Origin: Candidatus Nitrosocosmicus oleophilus
GTDB taxonomy: Archaea; Thermoproteota; Nitrososphaeria; Nitrososphaerales; Nitrososphaeraceae
DNA length: 64,000 nt
Direction of reading: 5' to 3'
NCBI RefSeq assembly: GCF_000802205.1
Contig: NZ_CP012850.1
Location: forward strand, 2,046,001-2,110,000
A model generated the notes under the pieces. That model was not told the origin of the DNA, made no database searches, and saw only the letters and a program-made list of their open reading frames with translations. Positions 14,566 through 53,917 of the stretch are shown piece by piece. The position numbers were made by a program, and so were the translations under genes. The stretch's first letter is position 1. Each line of letters begins with the position of its first letter.

Positions 14566-16036
<1,471 letters not shown>

Positions 16037-16791
16037 GTTATTATATTGTAGTAGTGGTAGTGGGTTAGAAGGGGCCTAGTGCTCTTTCTAATCTGCGAGA
16101 CTTTACAATAAAATTATACTAATAAAATAAAATCCCTAAATCTATCATATTATCATAATCATCATCTTCATCTTAATACATGAATGATGTAAGATAAAAA
16201 AGAGAGGGAGTGCAATCAAATCAATCTGATCAATCAATTCCTTCATTTTTCATTCATACGGTTCGAAAAACTGACTAGTATGTTGTATTTTTGACAAATT
16301 GATACAAAGAGAAAGGTTAGAAAGAAAAACTCTCTACTAATAGACTCCGGAATGATTTTAAGCAAATACCAATCCGTCTATGCAAATTCTTGATCGGCTA
16401 TCTTCTTGTGGAAATTAAAGTAGCTTTGATAATTGATATATTAGAAAATAATCAGTCTATCTGATCATTCCAAACAAAATCAGCATATGTAGTATCGGAT
16501 GCAATTCTTTGTCTCATAAAAAAATGAGGAGTAGAAGATGAAGAATGAAGTTGATGTAGTAAACGTTGTTTACAATGATCATCATGTAAAGGAAAACTCC
16601 AATTGAAAAAAGGTATCCACAACGTGTAGTAACACATTATCACAGATTTCAAAATAGACTAAATTCGCGTAATAACAATGTGGTCATCATGAACAACAGA
16701 ATTTATTTTGATTGTTATAGTGCAATATGTGTGTTATAGTTGTAGGTAAACAGCAAATTATCTTTATACATACGAAATACCAAATACCGAC

Positions 16792-16821
16792 CAAATCAAA
16801 TCAAATCAAATCAAATCAAAT
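16792..16821. repeat. Microsatellite (CAAAT)6 in the rRNA spacer
   Basis: Six perfect pentamer units, about 170 bases before the 23S start. Confidence 0.95.
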
Positions 16822-16845
16822 TAGACTTTTCTACCACAAGTGGAA

Positions 16846-16865
16846 CTAACTAACTAACTAACTAA
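16846..16865. repeat. Microsatellite (CTAA)5 in the rRNA spacer
   Basis: Five perfect tetramer units, followed by degenerate CTAGA/CTAAT repeats to about 16900. Confidence 0.93.
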
Positions 16866-16950
16866 AAGACTAGACTAGATAACTAATCTAATAACTAGAT
16901 CCAAAGGACAAAGAAAGAAAGAAACTCCAACAAAAAATAAAAAATAGAAA

Positions 16951-16980
16951 GTAAGTAAGTAAATTTATTTATTTATTTAT
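16951..16980. repeat. Microsatellites (GTAA)3 then (ATTT)4 adjoining 23S
   Basis: Three GTAA units (16951-16962) run directly into four ATTT units (16963-16978), ending only about ten bases before the estimated 23S start, so any slippage would change the immediate pre-23S leader. Confidence 0.93.
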
Positions 16981-16987
16981 AACTACT

Positions 16988-19940
<2,953 letters not shown>

Positions 19941-19942
19941 TC

Positions 19943-44654: not shown

Positions 44655-45047
44655 GTGCCAGCATTAAACATTTTATCTAATCTATTCACTACTCTGTATA
44701 ATAATGAGATGCGGAGAAAACGAGAATGTATAGTTTTGCCCGCGTCAAAATTCTCAAGTGAAGTTTTAAGGGTGATGCAAAAACAACGATATATCGGAGA
44801 ATTCGAACAAGTCGATGACGGGAGATTGGGTAAGTTTAGAATACAACTTTTGGCTAAAATTAATAAATGTGGGATTATTACTCCCAGATTTAGTGTGAAG
44901 AAAGATCGATACTTAGATTGGGAACGCCAGTTTCTTCCATCATATAATATGGGTATATTAATAGTGTCTACCAGTAAAGGAATTATGTCTCACCATGATG
45001 CCCAAAATGAAGGTCTAGGAGGTGCACTTATAGGTTATGTCTACTAA
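44655..45047 (+). CDS. rps8: Ribosomal protein uS8
   Basis: A 130-residue protein binding 16S helix 21: LSNLFTTLYNNEMRRKRECIVLPASKFSSEVL and VSTSKGIMSHHDAQNEGLGGALIGYVY are archaeal uS8. GTG start (44655), eleven bases after rps14; it overlaps rpl6 by eleven. Confidence 0.96.
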   Translation: MPALNILSNLFTTLYNNEMRRKRECIVLPASKFSSEVLRVMQKQRYIGEFEQVDDGRLGKFRIQLLAKINKCGIITPRFSVKKDRYLDWERQFLPSYNMGILIVSTSKGIMSHHDAQNEGLGGALIGYVY

Positions 45048-45579
45048 GCCTGAATTTTACACAAATGAGATCGTTATCCCAGAAGGGGTAACGATTAATA
45101 AGGATCAGAACCTCATTACCGCAACCGGTACAAATGGAAAAGTTCAAAAGGATTTTACGAAAATTCCAGCGGTGATAGATATTAGTAATGAAAAAATTAC
45201 AATAAGATCTTATGGGAATAGAAAAAGCGATTTTGCGTTGGTCAATACGGTGCATAGTCTTATTAGAAACATGATAAAGGGATCTACAACAGGATTCACA
45301 TATAAATTAAAAATAGTATTTGCACACTTCCCCATATCCGTCAAGATAAAGGGCCATGAGGTCTTTATTGAAAACTTTTTTGGAGAACGATCCGCGAGGG
45401 TATCTAAGATACTTGGGAAGGAAACTAAGGTTACTGTTCAAGGCGATGATATTTTGATTACAGGACCAAATATCGAACATGTATCTCAAACAGCTGCAAA
45501 TATAGAATCTTCTACTAGGATAAAAAATAAAGACTCTAGGGTGTTTCTTGATGGAGTATACATATACTCCAAAGCCTAG
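45037..45579 (+). CDS. rpl6: Ribosomal protein uL6
   Basis: A 180-residue protein with two similar domains; GFTYKLKIVFAHFPISVKIKGHEVFIENFFGE and VSQTAANIESSTRIKNKDSRVFLDGVYIY match the family. It is the last gene of the cluster here; rpl32e, rpl19e, rpl18, rps5, rpl30, rpl15 and secY, which normally follow in archaea, are absent from this position. Confidence 0.96.
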   Translation: MSTKPEFYTNEIVIPEGVTINKDQNLITATGTNGKVQKDFTKIPAVIDISNEKITIRSYGNRKSDFALVNTVHSLIRNMIKGSTTGFTYKLKIVFAHFPISVKIKGHEVFIENFFGERSARVSKILGKETKVTVQGDDILITGPNIEHVSQTAANIESSTRIKNKDSRVFLDGVYIYSKA

Positions 45580-45710
45580 AACATTATGAAATAATCTATT
45601 TATCATTGTTATAATGAGTCAGATTTGATCATAACGTTTAGTTTCTGAATAGAAGAACAAGGTAGCAAACATAACATTTATTTATTCTTTACATTTTTTA
45701 TTAGCATAGT

Positions 45711-45813
45711 GCCGCTGTAGCTCAGCTTGGTAGAGCAAATTCATAATGAATGCATTGTGAAGCTTAACTGGCTGTTAACCAGTAGGTCATCAGTCCGAGT
45801 CTGATCAGCGGCG
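45711..45813 (+). tRNA. tRNA-Asn (GUU) with a 29-nt non-canonical intron
   Basis: Acceptor GCCGCTG (45711-45717) pairs with CAGCGGC (45806-45812); D stem GCTC/GAGC; anticodon stem ACTGG/CCAGT (45767-45771 with 45779-45783) with loop CTGTTAA, anticodon GTT at 45774-45776; T stem ATCAG/CTGAT. No CCA is encoded. Between the D stem and anticodon stem there are 30 bases where one is expected. The D-stem GAGC can pair with GCTT (45762-45765), flanked by 3-base bulges AAA (45737-45739) and AAC (45766-45768); cuts after the second base of each remove 45739-45767 and restore a normal tRNA. The intron is thus at about position 26/27, not at 37/38. Confidence 0.92.
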
Positions 45814-49601: not shown

Positions 49602-50783
49602 TTAATCTCTGAGTAGCTTTGCAATATTCTCTAATAAGGTATAGATCTGTTCTGGATTATGATTTGTATTTAACGATATTCTTAATCGTGCCTCATTTCT
49701 CTTGACAGTTGGATATCGTATTGCATGAACAAAGAAATGCCGTCTTAATAATTTTTTAGAAACTTCTAAGGCTTTTTTTTCAGAACCAATCAAAAGTGGT
49801 ATTATCGGACTTTTTTCGATATTTCGGCTGTTGATTTTTTGTTCATTGGCTATTTTGTGAAAATACTCAATATTTCTATATAACTTTGTCTGGAGATTTC
49901 CAATCTTTGCAATTTGCAAAGACATCGTAGCTATTTCGGCCAAGGAATCTGGAAGTGCAGAGGTAAAAATAAATGGTCTTGATTTATTAATTAAGTAGTC
50001 TCTTACTAACTTTGAACAGCTAACATAACCTCCGAAGCAACCTAGTCCCTTGCTCAGACTACTTATATGAATATCAATTGCTTTATTAACTCCGAAATAG
50101 CTTGGTGTTCCGCCATAATCCTTTAACCTGCTGTTACCTATAATAAAGTCTCCATGTGAGTCGTCAACTATGAGTATGCAATTATGTTCATTTGAAATCC
50201 GTGTAATTTCAGTTAAGTTGGCCATATCGCCGTCCATACTGAATATACCTTCAGTTACTATTATTTTTCGTTTGTTACCATGTTTTTTTATACTCTTTTC
50301 TAGTTCATCTATATTATTATGAGGGAAGGGATGAATTTTGCTTGGGGTCAACTTGCATCCGTCTATTATGCTCGCATGATTCAATTCATCACTATAAATA
50401 ATAGTTTCTTTATCCGAGACACATCCTATGACTCCTAAATTTGCCATGAATCCTGTTGGATAGAGCAAAGATGATTGGGTTTTCCTATGCTTTGATAGGG
50501 CTTTCTCCAGGTTTTCTAAACTTTCCGTATTTCCGCTAATTAATCTTGAGCTACATTGTGAAACTCTTGAAATATGTAATTTTCTTAAATTTCTTCTTAA
50601 GAAGGTATTCATAGATAAACCCAAATAATCGTTAGAAGAAAAATTATTTACGCCCAGTACTCTAGCTCCTTTTCCTATGTTTGAGAATTCTTCAATAACT
50701 CGGAGCTCTCTGTATAGATCCTCCTTTCGTAACTCTCTTAACTTCTTTTGAAAATAAAGTGTATTAGTTTTGTTTGAGCCCAA
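49602..50783 (-). CDS. bioF: 8-amino-7-oxononanoate synthase
   Basis: BioF condenses pimeloyl thioester with alanine in biotin synthesis (PLP). The 393-residue protein has NNFSSNDYLGLS near the start, DELNHASIIDGCKLT, VTEGIFSMDGDMANL, VDDSHGDFI and the PLP lysine K245 in SSLSKGLG. Length is normal. It overlaps bioB by 20 bases, so the pair is translationally linked. Confidence 0.95.
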   Translation of the reverse strand: MGSNKTNTLYFQKKLRELRKEDLYRELRVIEEFSNIGKGARVLGVNNFSSNDYLGLSMNTFLRRNLRKLHISRVSQCSSRLISGNTESLENLEKALSKHRKTQSSLLYPTGFMANLGVIGCVSDKETIIYSDELNHASIIDGCKLTPSKIHPFPHNNIDELEKSIKKHGNKRKIIVTEGIFSMDGDMANLTEITRISNEHNCILIVDDSHGDFIIGNSRLKDYGGTPSYFGVNKAIDIHISSLSKGLGCFGGYVSCSKLVRDYLINKSRPFIFTSALPDSLAEIATMSLQIAKIGNLQTKLYRNIEYFHKIANEQKINSRNIEKSPIIPLLIGSEKKALEVSKKLLRRHFFVHAIRYPTVKRNEARLRISLNTNHNPEQIYTLLENIAKLLRD

Positions 50784-51744
50784 TCTCTTTTAGCATTCTA
50801 ATATCCTCCTGATGTTTATTTCCTTTTGTAGTCAAGTATCCCCCACTGATTATTCCATTAGCACCTGCTTTTAAGACCTTCTTATCATTCTTTTTCAGAT
50901 GAACTTCCCTCCCCCCTGCAATTTTTAAAATGGCCCTGGGCATAAGAAAGCGAAATGTAGCAATGGTCCTAATTATTTCCTCTTCCGTCAGGGAAAATTT
51001 GTTAAAGAGTGGAGTGCCTTCTCTACCTATTAACATGTTTACAGGGACTTCATCAGGATTTAGAGATTGTAAAGAAATACCCAATTCTACCCTCTGTTCG
51101 ATTGTCTCTCCCATCCCGATGATACCACCACTACATAACTCCAATCCTGCTTCTTTCACAATTTTAGCAGTATTGATTCTATCTTCATAAGAATGGGTAG
51201 TACAAATCTTATCAAACATGCTCTTGGCCGTTTCTAAATTATGGTTGTATCTTTTAACACCTAGCTTTTTTAACATAAGAGCCCTATCTCTCGTCATAAA
51301 ACCCAAAGATGTATTGACATCTATATCAAGACTTTCCTTTATTAACTTGATAGTATTACAAATTTGAATGAAGTCCTGTTCTGGAGGAGACCTGTAAGCA
51401 CAAACTATACAAAAACTATTAGCCCCATTATTCTTAGCTTCCTCTGCTTGCGCCAAAATCCTCTCTGGAGTCAATAGAGGATATTTTTCAATTTTGGTTG
51501 TATTAAACGTTGATTGAGAGCAAAACGAACAATCTTCTGGACATCTACCAGATTTCGCATTAACTAAGGTTTCAACATCAACTTTGTCACCTCCGAATTT
51601 TACGGTAATTTGATTTGCACAATCTGCGAGGAAATCCAGATCAGCAGAATTAATTAATTTCATTGCTTCCTGAAAATTGATTTTCTTATTTGAAAACACA
51701 TCAATCATTTTTTGGTAGACAAAGTTATTCGTCAAACTACTCAT
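50764..51744 (-). CDS. bioB: Biotin synthase
   Basis: Radical-SAM enzyme that inserts sulfur into dethiobiotin. The CxxxCxxC motif is C68, C72, C75 (GRCPEDCSFCSQ); VKRYNHNLETAKSMF and ELCSGGIIGMGETIEQRV match BioB, with IAGGREVHL near the end. The 326-residue length is normal. The ATG at 51744 is 240 bp from the divergent recombinase gene, so the bioB promoter lies in that spacer. Confidence 0.96.
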   Translation of the reverse strand: MSSLTNNFVYQKMIDVFSNKKINFQEAMKLINSADLDFLADCANQITVKFGGDKVDVETLVNAKSGRCPEDCSFCSQSTFNTTKIEKYPLLTPERILAQAEEAKNNGANSFCIVCAYRSPPEQDFIQICNTIKLIKESLDIDVNTSLGFMTRDRALMLKKLGVKRYNHNLETAKSMFDKICTTHSYEDRINTAKIVKEAGLELCSGGIIGMGETIEQRVELGISLQSLNPDEVPVNMLIGREGTPLFNKFSLTEEEIIRTIATFRFLMPRAILKIAGGREVHLKKNDKKVLKAGANGIISGGYLTTKGNKHQEDIRMLKEIGLKQN

Positions 51745-51983: not shown

Positions 51984-52589
51984 ATGGTTGTTATGAAGTA
52001 CGCGTTTGCTTACCTGCGAGTGAGTACAGAAGAACAGACAGTCTTAAATCAAAAGTTGGCGATGCAAGGTTGGGCTCATTCGCATGATTTTCAGATCTTG
52101 GATTATTTCGAAGACTCTTCAATTAGTGGAAAAACAGCTGCAATTGGTCGAAAGGGATTCCAAGAACTCTTGCGGATAATAGCATTAGAATCTGTCGATG
52201 CAGTTTTGGTCTATGAACTTTCAAGGGTTGGTCGTACTTTTTGGGATACTCTGGAAGCTATTAAGGCAATTGAACATTATACACCATTAATCTCCTGCTC
52301 TCCACGGGAAACTTTTCTTCAAACAACTGAACCAAGTATCAGAAAGCTTATGCTAGGCATCCTGACATGGGTCGCAGAACGTGAAAGGGAGTTGCTAGTT
52401 CAGAGAACCAAAGACGGCATTATTAGGGCCAAATCCGTGGGAAAACATATAGGAAGACCTAGAAAAATATTAAACACTACAGACTTAATTAATCACCTTT
52501 CTCAGAATAAATCTAAATTAAAGATTGCGAAGGAATTGGGAGTTTCAAAAGCAACCTTGTACAAGAATTTAAGAAATCTGGCTCCCTAG
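51984..52589 (+). CDS. Serine recombinase (resolvase/invertase type)
   Basis: A 201-residue site-specific recombinase. FAYLRVSTEEQTVLNQK holds the catalytic serine S14; ISGKTAAIGRKGFQELL, VLVYELSRVGRTFWDTLEAI (with the conserved YELSRVGR) and ERERELLVQRTKDGIIRAK (E helix) follow, then a C-terminal helix-turn-helix (LKIAKELGVSKATLYKNL). No transposase or cognate inverted repeats are seen. The gene is opposed to and inserted between bioB and bioA, its stop overlapping the bioA stop by four bases. The order catalytic-then-HTH argues against IS607-type TnpA. Confidence 0.92.
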   Translation: MVVMKYAFAYLRVSTEEQTVLNQKLAMQGWAHSHDFQILDYFEDSSISGKTAAIGRKGFQELLRIIALESVDAVLVYELSRVGRTFWDTLEAIKAIEHYTPLISCSPRETFLQTTEPSIRKLMLGILTWVAERERELLVQRTKDGIIRAKSVGKHIGRPRKILNTTDLINHLSQNKSKLKIAKELGVSKATLYKNLRNLAP

Positions 52590-53917
52590 CCAACATACCT
52601 TTTATTAATTTCTAAGACAATCTCCAATTGAGTGTCCATTATCTTATTAAGAGAAAATGAGTCTATGGCTAAAGGGGGTATGATAATCATCGTGTCTCCT
52701 AGAGACCTGATAAGGACACCTCTTTTGAGGGACTCTCTCATAACAAAATAGTTAATGGGTATGTTGTCTACCATGGTAATGGGTTTACCATTAACTGCAA
52801 GATCGAATCCTGCTAGCAATCCCTTCGCTCTGATATTTTTTACAATTGGAATTTGTTGAAAATCTTGTAACCTCTTTTTAAGTTGTTTGCTATTTGATCT
52901 TATCTTGTCCAGAAGATGATTCTCTTTGTACATTTTCAGGTTTTCAATTACAGCTGTGCAACCAATTGGGTGTCCAGCATATGTGTGACCGTGAAATAAG
53001 TGTTTTTGATCTCCTAAATTACCAGAGAATTGTTGATATATTTTTTTGGAAGTTAATGTAAGGGCTAGGGGAAAATAGCCTCCTGTAATAGCTTTGCCAA
53101 AACATACAATGTCTGGAACGCTTTCTTGGGATATGTATTCTATCATGTTTCCGAGCCTTCCAAACCCTGTGGCGATTTCGTCTAAGATCAACAAAATGTC
53201 ATGCTTTTTACACATTTCATTTATTCTCTTTTGATAACCAGTTGGGTAAATATTAACTCCTCCGGCCAATTGGGCACCGCTTTCCATTATTAACGCCGCT
53301 GTTTTATGTGCATTTTTTTCAATTATCTTTTCTGTCCTTTCAACTATTACATTTAATTTTTCCAAATTAACTATCCCATCTAGGGTTACCTTCTTAGGAT
53401 TCGGAATAACATGACAATTCAATAACAACCTCTTGTAACTCTTAAAGTATTTGTCAACATACCCTACTGACATCGCACCAATAGTGTCACCGTGGTAACC
53501 ATCGGCCAATGATAAGAATGAGGTTTTCTTCAAATTACCCTGATTACTCCAATATTGTAGAGCAATCTTTAAGGCAACTTCAATAGCCGAAGAACCATTA
53601 TCCGTGAAAAACATCTTGTTCATGCCCTTAGTTAATTTTAAGAATTTATTTGATAACTCAATTGATTTATTATTTCCAATTCCAAAAATAGTTGAGTGAG
53701 GGATTTGTCTGATTTGGTTGATCATTGCATCCGTAATTCGATTACTGCTAAACCCCCAAACATTGCACCACATATTAGAGACTCCGTCAAGATACCTGTT
53801 ACCTTCATTATCACAAAAATAAAAACCAGTTCCAGATCTCATAATCCTCCTATTGAGATATTTGGTGTAATCATGCATTTGCGTATAAGGATACCAAATG
53901 TTGTCACTTTTAGGCAA
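52586..53917 (-). CDS. bioA: Adenosylmethionine-8-amino-7-oxononanoate aminotransferase
   Basis: BioA converts KAPA to DAPA with SAM as amino donor (PLP). IWYPYTQMHDYTKY at the start is typical BioA, and GNRYLDGVSNMWCNVWG, FFTDNGSSAIEVALKIA, LADGYHGDTIGAMSVG and LDEIATGFGRLG follow, with K275 in CFGKAITGGYFPLA. The 443-residue length is normal. It precedes bioB in the same orientation with the recombinase between; bioD, expected nearby, is not in the window. Confidence 0.95.
   Translation of the reverse strand: MPKSDNIWYPYTQMHDYTKYLNRRIMRSGTGFYFCDNEGNRYLDGVSNMWCNVWGFSSNRITDAMINQIRQIPHSTIFGIGNNKSIELSNKFLKLTKGMNKMFFTDNGSSAIEVALKIALQYWSNQGNLKKTSFLSLADGYHGDTIGAMSVGYVDKYFKSYKRLLLNCHVIPNPKKVTLDGIVNLEKLNVIVERTEKIIEKNAHKTAALIMESGAQLAGGVNIYPTGYQKRINEMCKKHDILLILDEIATGFGRLGNMIEYISQESVPDIVCFGKAITGGYFPLALTLTSKKIYQQFSGNLGDQKHLFHGHTYAGHPIGCTAVIENLKMYKENHLLDKIRSNSKQLKKRLQDFQQIPIVKNIRAKGLLAGFDLAVNGKPITMVDNIPINYFVMRESLKRGVLIRSLGDTMIIIPPLAIDSFSLNKIMDTQLEIVLEINKRYVG

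Follow-up and report, generated by a model that had tools for sequence, protein, structure and literature searches.

The window analysed here, a stretch of 64,000 nucleotides from the complete 3.43 Mb genome of the soil ammonia-oxidising thaumarchaeon Candidatus Nitrosocosmicus oleophilus, carries on its forward strand a tRNA-Asn(GUU) gene at positions 45711-45813. The gene matches the Rfam tRNA model (RF00005) end to end with 42.2 bits (cut-off 29), and its anticodon loop, CTGTTAA, gives the anticodon GUU. The 3' strand of the D stem (GAGC) is separated from the anticodon stem by 29 surplus bases, and excision of the segment ATTCATAATGAATGCATTGTGAAGCTTAA leaves a 74-nt cloverleaf tRNA. That the exons join into a complete cloverleaf was found both with Rfam and with a purpose-written solver, in which all excisions compatible with a bulge-helix-bulge (BHB) motif were tried and the resulting cloverleaf was scored. 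The solver chose the identical 29-nt intron and scored the spliced form at 26.5, on a par with the best of the genome's intronless tRNAs. A sequence-only reading of this DNA had described a tRNA-Asn with a 29-nt insertion at this place, and its sequence, coordinates and insertion were all confirmed. The upstream box CATAACATTTATTTATTC is likely to be the archaeal TATA/BRE promoter of the tRNA gene. When Rfam was searched at a loose threshold, no further RNA was found in the intron or its flanks, so that a guide RNA at this place is unsupported. Elsewhere in the window, 16S and 23S rRNA genes lie on the forward strand at 14566-19942 with no tRNA found between them, and a serine recombinase (resolvase-like ORF, 51984-52589) sits between genes that we read as bioB (50764-51744, reverse strand) and bioA (52586-53917, reverse strand).

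Table 1. Features of the tRNA-Asn(GUU) locus, in window positions.
Feature	Positions	Strand	Basis or remarks
uL6 ribosomal protein gene, just upstream	45037-45579	+	synteny marker of the orthologous locus
A/T-rich upstream box CATAACATTTATTTATTC	45672-45690	+	conserved in 9 aligned genus members
5' exon of tRNA-Asn(GUU)	45711-45738	+	acceptor 5' strand, positions 8-9, D arm, nt 26, nt 27; Rfam RF00005, solver
5' exon end	45738	+	fixed by register test on relatives
Central BHB helix, exon strand GAGC (D-stem 3' strand, nt 22-25)	45733-45736	+	4/4 pairs in 63/63 relatives
5' bulge AAA (2 exon nt + 1 intron nt), cut after 45738	45737-45739	+	always 3 nt; AAA, AAT, AGA or AGT in relatives
Intron, 29 nt, at 27/28, ATTCATAATGAATGCATTGTGAAGCTTAA	45739-45767	+	computed coordinates, solver, register test with 63 relatives
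Inner helix h' and loop, TTCATAATG-AATG-CATTGTGAA	45740-45761	+	fold; pairing test against shuffles
Central BHB helix, intron strand GCTT	45762-45765	+	GCTT, GCTC, GTTC or GTTT in relatives, always paired with GAGC
3' bulge AAC (2 intron nt + 1 exon nt), cut after 45767	45766-45768	+	AAC, AGC or ATC in relatives
3' exon	45768-45813	+	remaining anticodon arm (GUU), variable loop, T arm, acceptor 3' strand, discriminator G; Rfam, solver

The borders of the insertion can be drawn as a BHB motif. The core described in the sequence-only reading, a 4-bp helix of GAGC with GCTT flanked by the 3-nt bulges AAA and AAC, is present, while that reading had missed an inner hairpin of 8-9 bp within the intron, TTCATAAT(G)/(C)ATTGTGAA. 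Thermodynamic folding of the whole precursor did not return the tRNA cloverleaf and returned the intron hairpin and the central helix, with GAGC paired to GCUU next to a 9-bp hairpin of TTCATAATG and CATTGTGAA. The outer helix of the strict hBHBh' form is lacking: at most A21-U29 and U20-G30 could pair, in line with the weak outer helix noted earlier. When the insert was shuffled 2 million times, all four pairs of the central helix arose in 1.1% of the shuffles, whereas the central helix together with an inner helix of 8 bp or more arose in only 4 of them (about 2e-6). The inner hairpin is the stronger part of the motif as compared to the 4-bp central helix. From its predicted pairing, we assign the motif to the relaxed BHB sites of the HBh' class and not to a lone 4-bp helix. 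In HBh' sites (Marck and Grosjean 2003, reviewed in PMC4090602) the outer helix is absent by definition, and the features given there are those found here, namely a central 4-bp helix, 3-nt bulges and an inner helix, a proper outer helix being absent. The positions listed in the accessible part of the review include 25/26, 29/30 and "etc.", 27/28 not being named among them.

The tRNA-Asn genes of related genomes were aligned, a check proposed in the sequence-only reading. The insertion was found at the identical spot in all 50 loci of the family that were read, its start in genus g9 of the family being the same as in the Nitrosocosmicus gene, and in almost every family locus of sufficient length uL6 stands beside the tRNA-Asn gene. 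By this comparison, we consider the intron to be orthologous across the family. A set of 63 distinct relatives was then drawn from the family and from f4, f7, f12 and f17, four further family-level groups in the order, and all four central pairs and both 3-nt bulges were retained in 63/63. The exon side of the central helix, fixed by the tRNA, is invariant and only its intron side varies (Table 1); the middle base of the 3' bulge is also free to vary, matching the expectation for an intron base. Intron length ranges from 16 to 40 nt among relatives whereas the exons are constant. With six pairs of the inner helix scored, 331 of 378 cells were paired, against 286 +/- 5 when the 3' arms were dealt at random, and none of 1000 shuffles reached 331, although these counts are inflated by the relatedness of the sequences. 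The pairs switch type freely (pair 5 occurs as A-T, T-A, G-C and T-G), and in a few relatives the helix is interrupted right at its base. Across the aligned sequences, the inner helix varies in a compensating way.

In the Nitrosocosmicus sequence alone, an AA repeat allows three registers of excision that give the identical product, and an intron that is real but cut at 25/26 or 26/27 would therefore suit this single gene equally well. The relatives discriminate between the registers: the 3' bulges AGC and ATC co-occur with U43, and the 5' bulge AGA co-occurs with C43. If both bulges are cut after their second base, standard pairs result at 27-43 as well as 28-42 in 63/63 relatives, against 59, 59 and 7 for the other registers, and the Watson-Crick count is 61, against 43, 43 and 0. 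Since the second-base cut alone fits all 63 relatives, we place the intron at 27/28 by sequence comparison, inside the first pair of the anticodon stem and after the first nucleotide of that stem, and we hold a cut in another register to be very improbable. The second-base cut had been correctly proposed from the single sequence, and the site is indeed not the usual 37/38; it does not, however, lie strictly between the D and anticodon arms as had been stated. A natural comparison is offered by genus g23 of the sister family f12, in which one species carries the intron (G093, L192) and another does not (G080, L241). Removal of the intron from the G093 gene by the second-base rule gives the tRNA-Asn sequence of G080, as far as the latter was read. 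The presence and absence of the intron within this genus is a recent loss or gain.

The gene could also be a decayed or silent copy carrying a random insertion, another tRNA-Asn serving the cell, an explanation that would agree with the failure of ARAGORN in default mode to report a tRNA-Asn gene at 45711-45813. The second intact tRNA-Asn that had been named earlier as the finding to count against a spliced gene is nonetheless missing, as a single tRNA-Asn gene was found in the complete genome and no second one at relaxed cut-offs. The exons are moreover perfect, and both the insertion and its structure are conserved across the family, so that we give a silent copy hardly any credence. Of 70 genomes in the family, 54 contain exactly one match to a pattern made from the 3' half of tRNA-Asn.

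The genome contains two EndA genes and a gene for the RtcB ligase. EndA beta (230 aa, L032:1123-1815, forward strand) has a threonine at the position of the M. jannaschii EndA histidine that we take to be catalytic, and would be the structural subunit, as expected of a chain devoid of the active-site His. EndA alpha (184 aa, L031:1453-2007, reverse strand) matches the catalytic subunits of S. tokodaii (2cv8) and A. pernix (3p1z_B) and retains the catalytic His (DHAPF). Catalytic and His-less subunits are thus encoded separately, as in alpha2-beta2 EndA. In EndA alpha the segment SKPKNAEFD aligns with VEKPRGADF of A. pernix, which brings K-P-K to the site of K44-P45-R46 (3p1z_B), and the Crenarchaea-specific loop signature K44-P45-R/K46 is accordingly present. 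In A. pernix, K44-P45-R46 is part of the Crenarchaea-specific loop, which has been linked to relaxed substrate recognition (PMC12397907). The A. pernix alpha2-beta2 enzyme likewise combines a catalytic and a structural subunit, with the K-P-R/K signature in alignment, whereas the Nitrosocosmicus enzyme is thaumarchaeal and predicted from its sequence. An alpha2-beta2 EndA lenient in its substrates is described for Thaumarchaeota in PMC4090602. The earlier suggestion that the endonuclease must tolerate a relaxed motif would fit this pair of predicted subunits, which is the arrangement found in lenient alpha2-beta2 enzymes. That the long form itself functions as a tRNA, its D and anticodon arms joined by an enlarged linker, has nothing in its favour beyond the uninterrupted gene and is scarcely conceivable, given introns of such unequal length between fixed exons, the absence of the intron in sister-family members and the presence of the splicing machinery.

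We therefore favour, with a probability of about 0.96, the interpretation that the single tRNA-Asn(GUU) gene of this organism carries a 29-nt intron, predicted to be spliced by proteins, at the non-canonical position 27/28 and within a relaxed HBh' motif. The data show directly that the gene exists in a single copy, that its structure is conserved, that comparison sets the cut register, and that the genome encodes both EndA subunits along with RtcB. We infer that the precursor is cleaved and ligated. In the precursor, the 3' strand GAGC of the D stem would leave its D-stem partner and pair with GCUU at the 3' end of the intron, and the resulting helix would adjoin the 8-9-bp hairpin of the intron itself to form the relaxed motif. 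An alpha2-beta2 EndA would cut between the second and third nucleotides of each 3-nt bulge, and RtcB would ligate the exons into a normal 74-nt tRNA.

Confident introns outside 37/38 were also found in no fewer than seven further tRNAs of this genome, those for Lys(CUU), Phe(GAA), Arg(CCU), Gln(UUG), Asp(GUC), Glu(UUC) and Glu(CUC) (loci L011, L023, L035, L037, L038, L039, L202 and others of genome G000), a lower bound as several multi-intron or long-intron tRNAs (L021, L025, L028, L029, L033) were not solved by the solver. These introns occupy positions 42/43, 30/31, 10/11 and 13/14 and the D loop, and canonical introns were found in Lys(UUU) and His. In tRNA-Trp (L033) there seem to be two introns, one of them in the T arm. 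The 3' end of tRNA-Gly(CCC) appears to be repeated about five times within 26 kb (G000:C1:3362431-3387987; L017, L034, L203, L209, L210, L211), as would be expected if tandemly integrated elements had left their attachment sites behind, and one of these loci, L034, is a nearly whole tRNA-Gly without an anticodon arm; tRNA-Gly(UCC) was not seen in the tRNA list of the genome.

Non-canonical tRNA introns are known in thaumarchaea, as had been stated in the sequence-only reading: the tRNAscan-SE 2.0 study reports 107 of them in Thaumarchaeota and provides a dedicated BHB model trained on thaumarchaeal introns (PMC8450103), and Thaumarchaeota are also listed for such introns by Chan et al. 2011 (PMC3218864). 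The intron described here is of the same kind, a short BHB-type intron away from 37/38, though tRNA-Asn 27/28 is not singled out in either paper, and no paper giving the tRNA introns of Nitrosocosmicus was found in the open-access literature. Given how common such introns are in this genome, and that they are on record for Thaumarchaeota, we find the case less striking than it first appeared.

Across the order, the 27/28 intron is present in five family-level groups, and none of the members read from f2, f9, f13, f15, f19 and f22 showed it. Introns of tRNA-Asn in other families (L190, L191, L183, L240, L184, L243) take further forms: in f7 a single gene has two introns, one in the D loop and one at 27/28, in f10 the intron lies in the D loop, and in f8 it apparently falls within the 3' strand of the D stem. 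A match in Scytonema (L111), obtained in a scan of named genomes, was discarded as a chance match without a tRNA. In a tree of uL3 and uL4, f4, which has the intron, branches outside a group made of f2 and f9, which have none, and f1, which has it, with support of 95-100, the deep nodes of the tree being weak. This placement of f4 fits an ancestral intron with losses, and the simplest reading of the sequences would be an old intron that underwent several exact losses; repeated gain at 27/28 may be the alternative. A further step would be that this intron, as a trait of ancient origin in the order, has been kept for a function: with GAGC having to pair either in the D stem or with the intron, splicing could serve tRNA-Asn as a checkpoint on folding or quality, or it could be required for a modification near nt 26-27. 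This reading seems to us unlikely.

On these comparisons, we regard the tRNA-Asn(GUU) gene of Nitrosocosmicus as a new and well-supported example of a documented class of archaeal tRNA introns. It leaves the accepted picture of these introns unchanged. The analysis settles the structure of an essential gene that is overlooked by a commonly used tool, and provides a well-sampled orthologous series of 63 sequences, with introns of 16 to 40 nt and with gains or losses inside a single order, whose compensatory changes reveal the splice register of a non-canonical tRNA intron.
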